From Halalkalibacter oceani (GTDB taxonomy: Bacteria > Bacillota > Bacilli > Bacillales > Bacillaceae_D), in contig NZ_JAMBOL010000016.1 in NCBI RefSeq assembly GCF_023715605.1, positions 1 to 64,000 of the forward strand: a DNA stretch of 64,000 nt. Reading direction: 5' to 3'. Shown piece after piece: positions 1,585 to 63,275 of the stretch. The notes under the pieces were generated by a model. It ran no database searches. It was given only the letters and a program-made list of their open reading frames with translations, and had not been told where the DNA came from. The translations under genes were made by a program, and so were the position numbers. Position 1 is the stretch's first letter; every line of letters begins with the position of its first letter.

Positions 1585-1740
1585 AATAAGAAAACCGCAG
1601 AGCGGCTTTTCTTAGAAGCGGCGTGCGGAGCCGTTACCATCTTTTACGGAGGGTTGAAAACGGGCTTTCTTCAGCCCTCCGCGTAACGCGCGAAGCCGCC
1701 GCCCTTCCTAGAATCAGCCCAAAAATCTTATCCTTTCTTA
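1585..1740. repeat. Dispersed repeat R1, copy A
   Basis: About 155 bp, closely matching 29290-29447. Order of parts: a mini-hairpin AAAACCGC-aga-GCGGCTTTTC, the block TTAGAAGCGGCGTGCGGAGC, a stem-loop whose stem differs between copies (GGGTTGAA/TTCAGCCC here), the block CCGCGTAACGCGCGAAGCCG, then a tail ending AATCTTATCCTTTCTTAT. Pieces recur at 329-450, 16982-17038 and 45992-46055. A 65-codon minus-strand frame over this repeat is not treated as a gene. Confidence 0.85.
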
Positions 1741-25448: not shown

Positions 25449-27641
25449 TTAGCTGGAGCAGCTCTCACAATCCTCGACCGTCACCGAGGTTGAACGGACA
25501 TAATAGGTCGTCTTCAGCCCTTCCTGCCAGGCGAGCAGGTGAAGCTCAAGCAGCTCTTTTGCTTTCACCGTATTCGGCACATACAGATTAAAGGAAATCC
25601 CTTGATCGACATGGCGCTGACGGCGGCCGTTCTGGCGGATGCTCCATTTTTGGTCGATCAGGTGAGCCTGCTTATAGAGCCAGGTCGTTTCCGCCGTCAA
25701 ATCCGGTGCCACGACAGGGATTCGGTAATTTTTCTTTTCTTCAACATAAAACTTCGCAAAAATCGGATCAATCGAAGCAGTCGATCCGGCAATAAGCGAG
25801 GTCGTCGCATTTGGCGCGACCGCCATCATATAGCCGTTGCGCACGCCGTACTCTGCCACATCCTGCCGCAGCTCATTCCATTTGTCCGACGTGTAGTCCC
25901 TCTTCGCAAAATAGTCCCCCGTATGCCAATCAGAGCCGGAAAACGCCGGATAGGCGCCCTTTTCCTTTGCCAACAGCAATGAGGCTTTCACGGTGTAATA
26001 ATGAATTTGCTCATAAATCTCATCCGCATAGTCGACCGCTTCCTCGCTTTCCCAGCGAATTCCTTTCTTCGCCAGCAAATGATGCCAGCCGAACGTTCCC
26101 AACCCGACCGCGCGGTATTTTTCATTCGTCAACTGCGCCTGTTTCACCTCAATCTGATTGAGGTCAATCACATTATCGAGCATCCGCACCTGAATCGTAA
26201 TTAACCGTTCGAGCACATCATCTTCCACGGCATTGGCGAGCGAAATCGAGGACAGATTGCAGACGACAAAATCACCCGGCGTTTTCGTCGTAATAATTTT
26301 CCCGTCCTTCGTATGCTCTTCTTCAATGATCGTCGGGCTCATATTTTGCATAATTTCCGTACAAAGATTCGAGCCGTAAATCATCCCACGGTGCCGGTTC
26401 GGATTCATCCGGTTCACCGTATCGCGGTAAAACATAAACGGACTGCCCGTCTCAAGCTGGGAGAGCATGATCCGCTTCATGATCTCAATCGCCGGTACTT
26501 CCACTCTCGAAAGCGCCTCTTCCTCCAGACAGCGGCGGTAACGGTCGCGGAAGCTTCCCTCACCCTTTTTCTCGTCATAGCTGTCCTCCAGCGAAAAGCC
26601 CATCACCTGCCGTACTTCATGCGGGTCAAACAACGCCCAATTCTCACGCTTTTCTACCGCCTCCATAAATAAATCAGGAACGGAAACAGCGGTGAACAAG
26701 TCATGCGTCCGCTGCCGTTCATCACCGTTGTTCAGCTTCGCATCAAGAAAGGAAAAAATATCGCGGTGCCACACATCCAAATAAACGGCAATCGCCCCCT
26801 GGCGCTGGCCAAGCTGGTCAACGCTAACCGCGACGTTGTTCAATTGCTTCATCCATGGCAGCACACCGGATGAGACTCCTTTAAAGCCGCGGATCGAAGA
26901 CCCTTTTGCCCGGATTTTGCCAAGGTAGATTCCAAGTCCACCGCCATTTTTGCTGACGGTCGCCGCATCGGTGCAGCTGTCGAAAATCGCCCGAAGATCA
27001 TCCGCGACCGTATCAATAAAGCAGCTTGATAATTGCCCTCCCTTCTTTCCGGCGTTCGCCAATGTCGGCGTTGCCGTCGTCATATATAAATGAGAGAGCG
27101 CCCAATAGCTTTCCTTCACCAGCTCAAGGCGACGTTCGCGCGGTTCCTTGACCATCAGCAGCATTGCGATCACCATGAAGCGCTCCTGCGGCAGCTCCTG
27201 AAGCGTTCCATCATAGCTTCTCGTCAAATAACGGTCAGCCAATGTCTTAATTCCAATGTATGTAAAGCGCTGATCCTGAGAAAGGTCCAGCACGCCGGCC
27301 AGCTCAGCGAGTTCCTGTGACGAATAGCTCGCCAGCCGCTCATCGTACAGTCCGTCCGCGATTAATCGACCGACCTGGGCCGGGAATGTCGAAGCCCATT
27401 GCTCCACTGCTGTGCCACGCAAGCCTGTGACTTGCTCATAAATCGAGTACAGATAGCATTGCGCCGCGACATAGGTCCAATCCGGCTCATCAACGTCGAG
27501 ATGATTCAACGCTTCAAGCGCCCGCTTTTCCCAGGAAATGTCTTTATCCATTTTCTCCAGCCACTCGGCGATCGGTAGATCGCTAAATCGACTGATTAGC
27601 TCGTCTATCCCATATCGTTCCACTGTTCCTGCTTTGCTCAT
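25449..27641 (-). CDS. nrdA: Class I ribonucleotide reductase, large (alpha) subunit
   Basis: 730 aa. It reduces ribonucleoside diphosphates to deoxy forms. Visible active-site elements are the reducing cysteines (Cys207 in LSSC, and the one in FVVCNLSS), the thiyl-radical cysteine in NLCTEI, the radical-transfer tyrosine pair in KTTYYVRS, and the C-terminal redox pair DCESC. The N-terminus has no recognisable ATP-cone motif, so dATP regulation may be absent. The ribosome binding site GAAGGAG is just upstream, and a riboswitch-linked terminator lies in the leader. The expected B12-dependent counterpart (nrdJ) is not in this window. Confidence 0.88.
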   Translation of the reverse strand: MSKAGTVERYGIDELISRFSDLPIAEWLEKMDKDISWEKRALEALNHLDVDEPDWTYVAAQCYLYSIYEQVTGLRGTAVEQWASTFPAQVGRLIADGLYDERLASYSSQELAELAGVLDLSQDQRFTYIGIKTLADRYLTRSYDGTLQELPQERFMVIAMLLMVKEPRERRLELVKESYWALSHLYMTTATPTLANAGKKGGQLSSCFIDTVADDLRAIFDSCTDAATVSKNGGGLGIYLGKIRAKGSSIRGFKGVSSGVLPWMKQLNNVAVSVDQLGQRQGAIAVYLDVWHRDIFSFLDAKLNNGDERQRTHDLFTAVSVPDLFMEAVEKRENWALFDPHEVRQVMGFSLEDSYDEKKGEGSFRDRYRRCLEEEALSRVEVPAIEIMKRIMLSQLETGSPFMFYRDTVNRMNPNRHRGMIYGSNLCTEIMQNMSPTIIEEEHTKDGKIITTKTPGDFVVCNLSSISLANAVEDDVLERLITIQVRMLDNVIDLNQIEVKQAQLTNEKYRAVGLGTFGWHHLLAKKGIRWESEEAVDYADEIYEQIHYYTVKASLLLAKEKGAYPAFSGSDWHTGDYFAKRDYTSDKWNELRQDVAEYGVRNGYMMAVAPNATTSLIAGSTASIDPIFAKFYVEEKKNYRIPVVAPDLTAETTWLYKQAHLIDQKWSIRQNGRRQRHVDQGISFNLYVPNTVKAKELLELHLLAWQEGLKTTYYVRSTSVTVEDCESCSS

Positions 27642-27718: not shown

Positions 27719-27829
27719 TAAAACGGCAGATTGAGAGTGTAATGTTCAGCTTTAGGCATGGAATATTCCACCGCTTTAAAAGCTGTGCCGTCTCACTTCT
27801 CAGTCCCCGAAGATAGCTGACTTTGGAAA

Positions 27830-27994
27830 AAATGGCAGGTCTCCTGACTCGTGCTTCGTCCTACAATGAGCCTTCCCATACAAGAGCGATCTACCTGCTT
27901 GCACAGTGGTTTTCTCATTTCGTCACACTTACAGTTGCGGGGACAGTTCTGGATTTTCACCAGATTCCCTATTAAGCCGTATATGGCGCCATTT
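27830..27994 (-). ncRNA. Cobalamin (B12) riboswitch upstream of ribonucleotide reductase genes
   Basis: All consensus blocks occur in order on the minus strand: P1 5' arm AAATGGC, AATAGGGAA, GGTGAAAATCC, ACTGTCCCCGCAACTGTAA, CCACTG, TGGGAAGG, the B12 box GAGTCAGGAGACCTGCC and the matching P1 3' arm GCCATTT. It lies about 190 bases upstream of nrdA, with a terminator in between. Coenzyme B12 should repress this B12-independent reductase. Confidence 0.95.
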
Positions 27995-28003
27995 ATCCAC
28001 ATC

Positions 28004-28031
28004 AATATATAGTTGTCATTCTCGTGACCAA
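28004..28031 (-). promoter_or_regulatory. Candidate promoter of the riboswitch/RNR operon
   Basis: Minus strand: TTGGTC (-35), 16-base spacer, TATATT (-10). Transcription would start just before the riboswitch P1 arm at 27994. Confidence 0.45.
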
Positions 28032-29282: not shown

Positions 29283-29289
29283 CTCGATA

Positions 29290-29447
29290 AATAAGAAAAC
29301 CGCACAGCGGCTTTTCTTAGAAGCGGCATGCGGAGCCGTTACCATCTTTTGAGGATGTCTGAAAGTGGGTTTCTTTCAGACAGGCGCGTAACGTGCGAAG
29401 CCGACGCCCTTCCTCGAATCAACCCGAAAATTTTTATACTTTCTTAT
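29290..29447. repeat. Dispersed repeat R1, copy B
   Basis: Near-identical to 1585-1740 in its outer blocks (mini-hairpin AAAACCGC-aca-GCGG, CGGAGCCGTTACCATCTTTT, GCGCGTAAC...GCGAAGCCG, final TACTTTCTTAT). The central stem is different: GTCTGAAAG (about 29365-29373) pairs perfectly with CTTTCAGAC. The last bases overlap the stop of the 29-aa peptide gene (29434-29523). Confidence 0.85.
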
Positions 29448-43109: not shown

Positions 43110-43280
43110 AAAGCCCGGTGCGAGAAACCCACTCACAACGAGGCCACTGAAAAACCTCTTTTTCCGTAACTCGAAGAAGAGTAATGGCTCCGCGCGTTGC
43201 ACGCCTTGCTTCGAGACACCCACTCGTAGCAAGGCTTTCAAAATCAGGCAACGGCTACGCTCATTACTTCTAATATTTCC
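43110..43280. repeat. R2-type hairpin repeats between convergent genes
   Basis: Two hairpins: an imperfect one around 43111-43143 (loop AAACCCA, as in copy a) and GCCTTGCTTCGAG (43203-43215) pairing with CTCGTAGCAAGGC (43223-43235) with one mismatch, followed by the tail GGCAACGGCTACGCTCATTA. They lie between the PucR-type gene (+) and adeC (-) and may serve as their shared terminator region. Confidence 0.65.
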
Positions 43281-45173: not shown

Positions 45174-46007
45174 ATGAAAAAACGAATAACGAAGCGCCTG
45201 CTTGTAATAGTTGCAATCCTTATATCCCTGTTTTGGTTCTCACATTGGCAAAATAATTCGCTCGTCACGACTGAAGTAACGCTTCATTCCGAGCGTCTTC
45301 CGCTGAATTTTTCAGCGTACCGCATTGTGCAATTATCCGACTTACATAACAAACGGTTCGGCAGCGAGCAGCAGGCTCTTGTACAAAAAGTTGCCGACGC
45401 CCGGCCTGATCTCATCGTTTTTACCGGAGATCTTGTTGATTCCGCTAAAGGCGATGAAGAGGCAAGCTTACTCTTGATGGAAAAGCTGGTCGAGCTCGCT
45501 CCTGTTTACTACGTAACAGGCAATCACGAATGGTCATCCGGCCGCTTTTCATCGCTTGAACAGCAGTTAACGGCCGCAGGTGTCCACATATTGCGAAATA
45601 CAGCATCGGAGCTCGCGATCGGAGAGGATACGATCCAGCTTGTCGGCATCGATGACCCGGCGCAAGGTGAGCAAACGGAGAATATGCTTGAGCAGGCTTT
45701 TCACAAAGTGGACGAAGAACGCTTCACAATTTTACTGGCTCATCGACCAGAGGAACTTGCGCTCTATGCCGATTATCCAGTTGACCTTATTTTCTCCGGT
45801 CACGCGCATGGCGGCCAATTTCGTCTGCCTTTCATTGGCGGACTCGTCGCTCCAAACCAAGGCTGGTTTCCTCCCTATACAGCCGGCAGCCATACACTGG
45901 GACGGGCAACGATGATTGTGAACCGCGGTCTCGGCAATAGCATCATTCCGCAACGGATCTTCAACCGGCCTGAGATTGTAGTCGTGACATTAAGAAAAAC
46001 CGCGTAG
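45174..46007 (+). CDS. Membrane-anchored metallophosphoesterase (YkuE/YaeI type)
   Basis: 277 aa. An N-terminal membrane anchor (about residues 8-24) precedes a calcineurin-like phosphoesterase domain with all metal motifs: QLSDLHN, FTGDLVDS, GNHEW, LLAHRPE and SGHAHGGQ. Related proteins act on phosphodiesters or lipid-linked phosphates; the substrate is unknown. The last residues, RKTA and stop, are encoded by the edge of a dispersed repeat (AAGAAAAACCGCGTAGCGG), so the natural C-terminus has been remodelled. Confidence 0.88.
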   Translation: MKKRITKRLLVIVAILISLFWFSHWQNNSLVTTEVTLHSERLPLNFSAYRIVQLSDLHNKRFGSEQQALVQKVADARPDLIVFTGDLVDSAKGDEEASLLLMEKLVELAPVYYVTGNHEWSSGRFSSLEQQLTAAGVHILRNTASELAIGEDTIQLVGIDDPAQGEQTENMLEQAFHKVDEERFTILLAHRPEELALYADYPVDLIFSGHAHGGQFRLPFIGGLVAPNQGWFPPYTAGSHTLGRATMIVNRGLGNSIIPQRIFNRPEIVVVTLRKTA

Positions 46008-46055
46008 CGGCTTTTCTCGAATCAACCCGAAAATCTTATACTTTCTTATCTTAAA
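45992..46055. repeat. Dispersed repeat R1, short copy
   Basis: Contains the mini-hairpin AAAACCGC-gta-GCGGCTTTTC followed directly by the R1 tail TCAACCCGAAAATCTTATAC; the middle of the element is missing. It supplies the stop codon of the metallophosphoesterase gene. Confidence 0.75.
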
Positions 46056-46060
46056 AAAAT

Positions 46061-46204
46061 AGAGCCACTCAAAAGGCTAACACCGGCCTTTAACGCCTGG
46101 CTTCGCTCGCTGGAATTCATGAGGACTTCACTCATGAATTTGAAGACCTTCCTGCGGCTCCGCTTTCAGGCTAAGAGCCACTCAAAAGGCTAACACCGGC
46201 CTTT
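46061..46204. repeat. 31-bp direct repeat flanking an 82-bp hairpin element
   Basis: The same 31 bases, beginning AGAGCCACTCAAAAGGCTAA, occur at 46061-46091 and 46174-46204. Only the second copy keeps the other arm of the terminator stem. Between them is an 82-base segment with the hairpin AATTCATGAG / CTCATGAATT (46114-46140) and the R2-like tail CCTGCGGCTCCGC. Confidence 0.85.
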
Positions 46205-46220
46205 TGAGTGGCTCTTTTAT
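46175..46220 (+). terminator. Intrinsic terminator between metallophosphoesterase and yerC genes
   Basis: GAGCCACTCAAAAGGC, loop TAACACCG, GCCTTTTGAGTGGCTC (16 bp, perfect), then TTTTATT on the plus strand. Confidence 0.85.
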
Positions 46221-46534
46221 TCTTCGACTTTTAGTTCGTTTTCCTTCACGCGGTCAAGCGTCATTTTATAGCCGTCGTTTCCGTAGTTCAGGCACCGTTT
46301 GACGCGGGAAATCGTCGCGGTGCTAGCGCCGGTTTCGGTTTCGATTTTATGATAGGTAAAGCCATTTTGCAGCATTCTGGCTACCTCCAGACGCTGGGCA
46401 AGGGACTGGATTTCGTTTATGGTACATAAATCATCGAAAAATTGATAGCATTCCTCAAGATCCTTTAATGACAAAATCGCTTTAAATAGTTGATCGAGCT
46501 CCTTGCCGCGCAGCTTATCTATTTGCAATGTCAT
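46217..46534 (-). CDS. yerC: YerC, TrpR-like DNA-binding protein
   Basis: 105 aa (YerC of B. subtilis 104 aa). It is a TrpR/YerC/YecD-family helix-turn-helix protein: SLAQRLEVARMLQNGFTYHKIETETGASTATISRVKRCL holds the HTH. The regulon is not known. The conserved neighbour YerB-like lipoprotein is encoded just upstream, with 20 bases between. Confidence 0.93.
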   Translation of the reverse strand: MTLQIDKLRGKELDQLFKAILSLKDLEECYQFFDDLCTINEIQSLAQRLEVARMLQNGFTYHKIETETGASTATISRVKRCLNYGNDGYKMTLDRVKENELKVEE

Positions 46535-49843: not shown

Positions 49844-51517
<1,674 letters not shown>

Positions 51518-63121: not shown

Positions 63122-63172
63122 TTTCATACGGCTACAGGGCACCATAAGAAGACATGTGCCTCTGTCACTTTC

Positions 63173-63241
63173 CCTCATAGTCCGATTTTTTACGGCAATC
63201 GGGTAGAAACTTCTGGACCATATTTCCAAGATTATATGAGG
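63173..63241 (-). ncRNA. Guanine (purine) riboswitch
   Basis: Minus strand: P1 CCTCATA...TATGAGG, J1/2 ATAATC, P2 loop AATATGG, J2/3 GTTTCTACC, P3 loop CCGTAAA, then GGACTATGAGG. The discriminating base in GACTATG is C, which pairs with guanine or hypoxanthine; adenine riboswitches have T there. High guanine should stop pur transcription. Confidence 0.95.
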
Positions 63242-63275
63242 TTCTTATTCGCTTTTGATCATTCGATATAGCTTT

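Follow-up and report, generated by a model that had tools for sequence, protein, structure and literature searches.

A perfect 31-nt direct repeat behind a gene that we take to be yerC (46217-46534, minus strand) consists of a hairpin (T) and its partial copy (T') within one composite unit, and the segment enclosed between them (E) is one of the many copies of a dispersed element that has spread. Our favoured, if tentative, reading is that the repeat originated by local duplication within a composite non-coding interspersed repeat of the form T-E-T'. The window (the whole 64,000-nt stretch of DNA analysed) is part of a Halalkalibacter genome referred to here as G000, from a halophilic and alkaliphilic relative of Bacillus, and the features of the locus are the following.

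45174-46007, plus strand: metallophosphoesterase-like gene, convergent with yerC (label taken from the feature under a plasmid match)
46053-46060, minus strand: T-run behind T', read from the sequence as ATTTTTTT on the minus strand
46061-46091, minus strand: T', a partial hairpin copy comprising, in the yerC sense, the end of the 5' arm, the loop and the entire 3' arm
46092-46173, minus strand: E, a family member (match to model R1 at 46093-46173, 64.4 bits, E-value 6.2e-14 in the window)
46173-46216, no strand assigned: T, an 18-bp terminator-like hairpin with an AAAAGG..CCTTTT apex and a T-run at 46213-46219 on the plus strand
46174-46204, minus strand: second copy of the 31-nt repeat, inside T, from direct-repeat detection
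46217-46534, minus strand: yerC-like gene, its 3' end at the unit, matched in 59 of the 60 genomes searched (its own counted)

The two copies of the repeat (AGAGCCACTCAAAAGGCTAACACCGGCCTTT, 31 nt) are 100% identical and offset by 113 nt (46061-46091 and 46174-46204), and the 82-nt segment between them (46092-46173) forms a hairpin with an asymmetric bulge. Only the second copy lies within a complete hairpin, of 18 bp (46173-46190/46199-46216). The preliminary description had claimed both a perfect 31-base duplication around an 82-base hairpin element and a complete terminator at the downstream copy alone; the duplication holds exactly, and so does the restriction of the complete hairpin to that copy. 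Folded as DNA, E (46092-46173) has an energy of -16.1 kcal/mol (z -3.6), surpassing all 200 of 200 dinucleotide shuffles, and the stretch 46040-46225 folded as RNA gives a z of -7.5. The unit lies between the convergent metallophosphoesterase-like (plus) and yerC (minus) genes. Read in the yerC sense the order is complete T, E, partial T' and T-run, such that on the minus strand T leads and lacks a T-run, which is found instead behind the partial copy (46060-46053), while on the plus strand E precedes the hairpin with its T-run at 46213-46219. The repeat stops exactly at the hairpin base and the T-run comes next, as an insertion between the two would leave.

A first blast search in the genus returned weak pieces of E, and the surroundings of several of these had the same layout at other genes and with other hairpin sequences. 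A covariance model (R1) built from 12 aligned E copies, the yerC copy among them, gave at least 134 matches in G000 at an E-value of 1e-7 or better (among the best 150 scored, some of the weakest of which overlap) and 132 in its relative G007 at 0.001. At 1e-5, matches were found in 14 of 41 genomes of the family, comprising 12 of 13 Halalkalibacter and 2 of 2 of another genus. Order-wide, with the best 14 candidates scored per genome, 16 of 299 genomes and 8 of 116 genera had matches (own genus, G000 and a weak G002 match at 1.1e-5 included), and the distribution within the order is patchy. Twelve copies tied at 87.4 bits are identical by eye and lie behind different genes. In an alignment of 102 distinct rows, which was fitted to R1 and thereby favours structure, 24 of 26 pairs were changed on both sides, none of 500 shuffles reached any measure, and 95.3% of pair cells were standard; sliding the partners by 1-3 columns lowered pairing to 22-52%. 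The bulge and loop of E contain conserved letters in the 12-copy alignment. Besides the yerC copy, the window holds the following members.

1615-1703, plus strand: E copy, 60.7 bits
1785-1872, minus strand: E copy of family-A type with its own hairpin and tail, 85.5 bits, in the R1 building set
29320-29408, plus strand: E copy, 67.8 bits
43180-43270, minus strand: E copy, 71.8 bits, in the R1 building set; G007 has an extra hairpin and element piece here
51238-51301, minus strand: weak or decayed E copy, 23.3 bits, E-value 0.0014
51387-51476, minus strand: E copy, 65.2 bits; G007 has an extra T-E unit here

The two plus-strand copies each lie in one member of a 148-nt repeat pair (1582-1729 and 29287-29434, 84% identical), the common downstream tail of which is found again at 46008-46059. 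About 25 near-identical family A units of G000 (L067-L093) have a nearly constant tail and varying T stems, and a locus of the distant genome G084 (L231) has a hairpin, element and tail similar to family A.

The unit is preferentially placed behind genes. Classified by a simple ORF rule, 58 copies of G000 and G007 with long flanks comprised 25 between convergent genes, 22 co-directional in sense, eight co-directional in antisense, two divergent and one unassigned. In 64 of 102 copies (one of the 103 was skipped, its flanks being too short) a hairpin of at least 14 bp with no more than two mismatches ended no more than 8 nt ahead of E, compared with 0/102 behind E and 0/102 in letter-shuffled flanks. 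Among 62 distinct T hairpins, none was followed in the gene sense by a T-run (at least five T in the 8 nt behind), and thus 'terminator' is only a label there; 14 of the 62 had at least five A in front, equivalent to a T-run in the opposite sense. The unit is likely to be a portable 3'-end hairpin, predicted to stop transcription in one orientation or both wherever a T-run lies beside it, yerC being an example. A low share of G-U pairs in E (98/2649) and T (23/1111 predicted pairs) was considered as a hint of DNA-level constraint and set aside, the controls (one tRNA with 3/26 and two riboswitches with 6/72) being too few to use. The orthologous T stems of G004 and G010 at thrS and trx differ by paired A/T flips or entirely, yet remain complementary, as if one arm had been copied from the other.

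The arrangement at yerC recurs throughout the family of elements. An exact word of at least 15 nt was shared between a copy's own two flanks in 40 of 103 copies, against 16 of 2020 mismatched flank pairs, and one of at least 20 nt in 37/103 against 7/2020, in a non-random set that includes one array's units, two yerC orthologues and a few non-hairpin repeats, and omits 20 of the 95 matches of one list (eight near-identical family-A copies, N-interrupted, weak or cut copies, and others) and 5 of the 33 of the other. Given this recurrence (40/103 versus 16/2020), the yerC repeat is not due to chance. In 38 of the 103 copies the segment just before E is found again downstream, these repeats not being independent, since they include array units, two yerC orthologues and three trx orthologues. 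Their left edge lies 31-39 nt before E in 24/38 (21 loci of the genus), and their right edge falls between -9 and +7 relative to the E start in 13/38, yerC included, or at least 12 nt inside E in 25/38, mostly array units. Other elements bordered by direct repeats of similar length, which the preliminary description had suggested looking for, are recurrent, and the 31-base duplication looks more like a recurring feature of local multiplication than a one-off scar.

T' matches the local T, and the T stem varies between loci. Four loci (L064, L054, L146 and L111) have only a stub of E behind T'. Arrays of two to four R1 matches were found in G012, G004, G010, G059, G154 and G081, one G010 unit being broken by N and the third G081 unit assigned by eye. 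Within one array, the E units that separate the repeats are copies of one another and not the unique spacers of a CRISPR. By eye, other genera have the same layout with other hairpin sequences, and at one such locus (L240) a T-rich run again follows the partial copy. Three R1 matches of 186-187 nt (L096, L110 and L155) were rejected as longer versions of E, as they contain runs of N.

Comparison of orthologous sites indicates how the units come and go between relatives. Of 12 yerC loci in the genus, only those of G000 and G007 have an E found by R1. The G007 site has the same double copy and the same middle segment; none of the ten loci without E has the same T (by eye). Judged by eye, six of the other loci have a short hairpin of related sequence with a T-run, and in G003 and G009 the hairpin is longer, its apex of AAAAGG type and its stem different; G009 also has a possible E remnant next to it in the opposite direction. 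At thrS, E is present in 4 of 13 loci with one further weak match; by eye, there is partial E in G001, G005 and G006 (cut by the contig end in G006), a short spacer without an obvious hairpin in G000, G007 and G003, a short palindrome in G002 and another hairpin in G008. At trx, 8 of 13 loci have E (one weak), and each of the remaining five has a single plain terminator that differs in sequence. An empty site with a single terminator copy, which the preliminary description anticipated in related strains, was sought among the yerC, thrS and trx orthologues of the genus, and none with the same T was found (T judged by eye).

The trx locus provides the sole before-and-after pair showing tandem duplication, in which a close species pair has one T-E-spacer unit (G006) and two in tandem with a period of 210 (G009), amounting to a 210-bp tandem duplication; the duplicated T of G009 is complete, unlike the partial T' elsewhere. 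In G004 and G010 the trx loci are both two-unit arrays, uniform within and with stems that differ between them, reflecting either stems drifting in concert or separate origins. The preliminary description's alternative of slippage or simple duplication finds an example in the whole-unit duplication of G006/G009; at yerC, where it had been tied to a relative with a different or missing middle segment, G007 retains the same one.

Turnover is also apparent when G000 is compared with G007 (about 91-99% identity over aligned pieces, 92-93% around yerC). At 43180 and 51387 of the window, G007 contains T-E material that G000 lacks, and six sites in three further syntenic block pairs have units in one genome that are absent from the other or replaced by another hairpin or remnant (one-genome units include G007:C102:34966 and G000:C36:496523). 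Near 60.7 kb of G000:C80 a different plain terminator occupies the position of a G007 family-A unit, which is a terminator replaced, not split. Comparison of 53 G000 loci with 30 G007 loci gave seven orthologous pairs, both lists being partial and hence permitting no count of absences. As regards the earlier suggestion that these elements move, it is the spread of the family that stands, in the form of 12 identical copies behind different genes and units confined to one genome.

T and E are separable, for T-class hairpins were also found alone. The strict apex pattern AAAAGGTYGN{4,8}ACCTTTT occurs in 15 of 41 family genomes, comprising the 14 with E and one with a single match, and its reversed form gave at most one match per strand and genome. 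With a looser apex (AAAAGG N6-14 CCTTTT plus at least four further pairs) and E-free defined as no R1 match within 45 nt, 10 of 12 distinct T-like hairpins in G000 (window plus 200 kb, 264 kb) and 10 of 13 in G007 (278 kb) were E-free, the ten of G007 including one array tail and one with a truncated E (by eye). Such lone hairpins could be insertion targets or the remains of lost units. Several of those in G000 contigs C36 and C80 (L194, L199-L201 and L204) are conserved in place in G007, and some have the family A GGCTGG stem; these lone hairpins are perhaps a dispersed repeat of their own.

Searches for a mobilising enzyme covered draft assemblies, in which gaps are possible. The Y1 transposase profile PF01797 had no match in G000 or G022, both E-rich, and nine in G002, where no E reached 1e-5; among the 14 E-bearing genomes, 12 have a match. 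The reverse transcriptase profile PF00078 gave no match in G000, G001, G003, G006 or G008, all with E. No family-A unit was detected in phage or plasmid records at blastn sensitivity, and viral contigs had no match to an exact 27-base pattern. No Rfam family matched E in the window at its gathering score, and in eight E-bearing loci the sole match overlapping E scored 19 bits against a gathering score of 279 (E-value 0.4), with no group II intron match on any E. A match to group II domain V was noted at 54-124 of L006 (G000 C22, near the end), with an E copy some 650 nt away; the draft genome has no reverse transcriptase match.

Under the local duplication that we tentatively favour, the composite unit would run, in the sense of the upstream gene, from a long terminator-like T through the bulged hairpin E and, in many copies, on to a partial T'. 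T' would be born locally, through hairpin-provoked replication slippage or template switching or through unequal exchange between units, and such local duplication would give rise to tandem arrays, from which later loss of units would leave T-E-T'. The proposal is based on the family itself, its gene-end placement, T beside E, the fixed left edge of T', the arrays, the one whole-unit duplication and the covarying stems; slippage or template switching as the cause, and the manner in which new sites are reached, are what we infer beyond this basis. Local duplication at hairpins accounts for the tandem units, the E stubs behind T' and the uniform arrays, of which the stubs could also arise after insertion and later recombination. 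Edges as fixed as those observed (left in 24/38, right in 13/38) would not be expected of random tandem duplication and count against this reading, as does the commonness of E-free T-like hairpins. By itself, local duplication leaves the fixed left edge unaccounted for, and a breakpoint determined by the hairpin would account for it. If the proposal is right, a portable 3'-end hairpin with well over 100 copies rewrites gene ends between close species, and the arrays are a record of hairpins provoking local duplication. Because the left edge is fixed at 21 loci of the genus, slippage and insertion can be tested directly against each other.

The closest competitor, which we regard as plausible and slightly less probable, is that E is an insertion element which recognises hairpins of the T class, integrates at their base and leaves a duplicated target of about 31-39 nt (the upper 5' arm, loop and 3' arm of the hairpin), with arrays formed by recombination. 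It comes close behind local duplication because T-like hairpins stand alone and because a target duplication of about 34 nt would explain the fixed left edge. The edges at -31 to -39 (24/38) and -9 to +7 (13/38) fit such an event, as do the equality of T' with the local T despite stems that vary by locus, the T-run after the partial copy at yerC with its T-rich counterpart in L240, and the E-free T-like hairpins common in G000 and G007, which could be targets. Set against these are the missing empty sites with the same T at yerC, thrS and trx, the near absence of the strict apex pattern from E-free genomes, the further events required to produce E stubs behind T', and the failure to match a Y1 transposase or reverse transcriptase in G000. 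The preliminary description had envisaged such a split terminator with one arm left as target duplication, next to a slippage duplication; the fixed left edge and the E-free hairpins speak for the former, and the single-copy empty site did not materialise. In a reading that appears unlikely, E would be a minimal mobile element whose integration at DNA hairpins duplicates a hairpin target of about 31-39 nt, which is CRISPR-repeat length, by means of an enzyme distinct from any Y1 transposase or reverse transcriptase detectable in G000, with arrays produced by repeated rounds or recombination.

We consider it quite improbable that selection for termination or 3'-end protection maintains the unit as a functional RNA or 3'-UTR module, its copy number owing more to selection than to mobility. 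Compensatory changes, conserved bulge and loop letters and the sense-biased placement behind genes (25 convergent and 22 sense versus eight antisense of 58) agree with such a module, but not the turnover between G000 and G007 at 92-93% identity around yerC, the many near-identical copies at unrelated genes or the patchy distribution. Least probable of all is an ordinary IS-derived MITE or a RAYT-mobilised REP, for although size, copy number, intergenic location and the imperfectly inverted family-A ends (by eye) fit, family A has no short target duplication (by eye), Y1_Tnp has no match in the E-rich G000 and G022, and the E ends have neither GTAG nor CGTC.

Several known systems resemble the unit in part. 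Pneumococcal BOX elements are modular with a repeated internal module, and the unit, likened here by description only, resembles them in being modular, with internal modules that vary in number. Terminator hairpins are the targets of group IIC introns, and E is likewise placed behind a terminator-like hairpin, but E is 87 nt long without a group II match, and G000 has no reverse transcriptase match. The nearest catalogued kind, which might be related to E, is Bhal-1 of Bacillus halodurans, one of the stem-loop repeat families, with 36 intergenic copies of 74 bp and a conserved stem-loop (PMC2267715). Compared by description only, the two are both high-copy, intergenic, foldable and of similar size, and Bhal-1 belongs to an alkaliphilic Bacillus relative; the accessible part of that source does not mention a hairpin-plus-direct-repeat layout or tandem growth for Bhal-1 (PMC2267715). 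REP sequences and BIMEs with RAYT share palindromic structure, high copy number, intergenic location and composite arrays with E, but REPs measure 20-40 bp compared with 87 nt and, as far as the available portions of these sources describe them, differ from E in its lack of a GTAG/CGTC end tag and of a Y1 match in G000 (PMC3733652, PMC2817692). The 12-sequence consensus of E, nAAGCAATGAGCGG...GAAGCCATTGCC, has neither GTAG nor CGTC at its ends, and a GTAG is found immediately beyond E in family A; the family-A ends look imperfectly inverted, with no short direct repeat outside them (by eye). Bacterial MITEs such as RUP, NEMIS, ERIC, YPAL and bcr1 are, in the accessible account, like E non-coding, dispersed, beside genes and folded when transcribed (PMC3733652). 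Unlike in the MITEs so described, no short target duplication was seen for E, and the repeated sequence is the adjoining hairpin. E is a structured intergenic interspersed repeat, a known kind, and the T-E-T' layout is not described in the accessible parts of the literature on repeats, terminators, introns, Halalkalibacter and Bhal-1.

Two further observations concern the window. Positions 27113-27396 of the Klebsiella variicola plasmid CP063894.1 are 75.5% identical to most of yerC, possibly through contamination. Two riboswitches scored above the gathering score, namely a cobalamin riboswitch at 27817-28007 and a purine riboswitch at 63158-63259, both on the minus strand.
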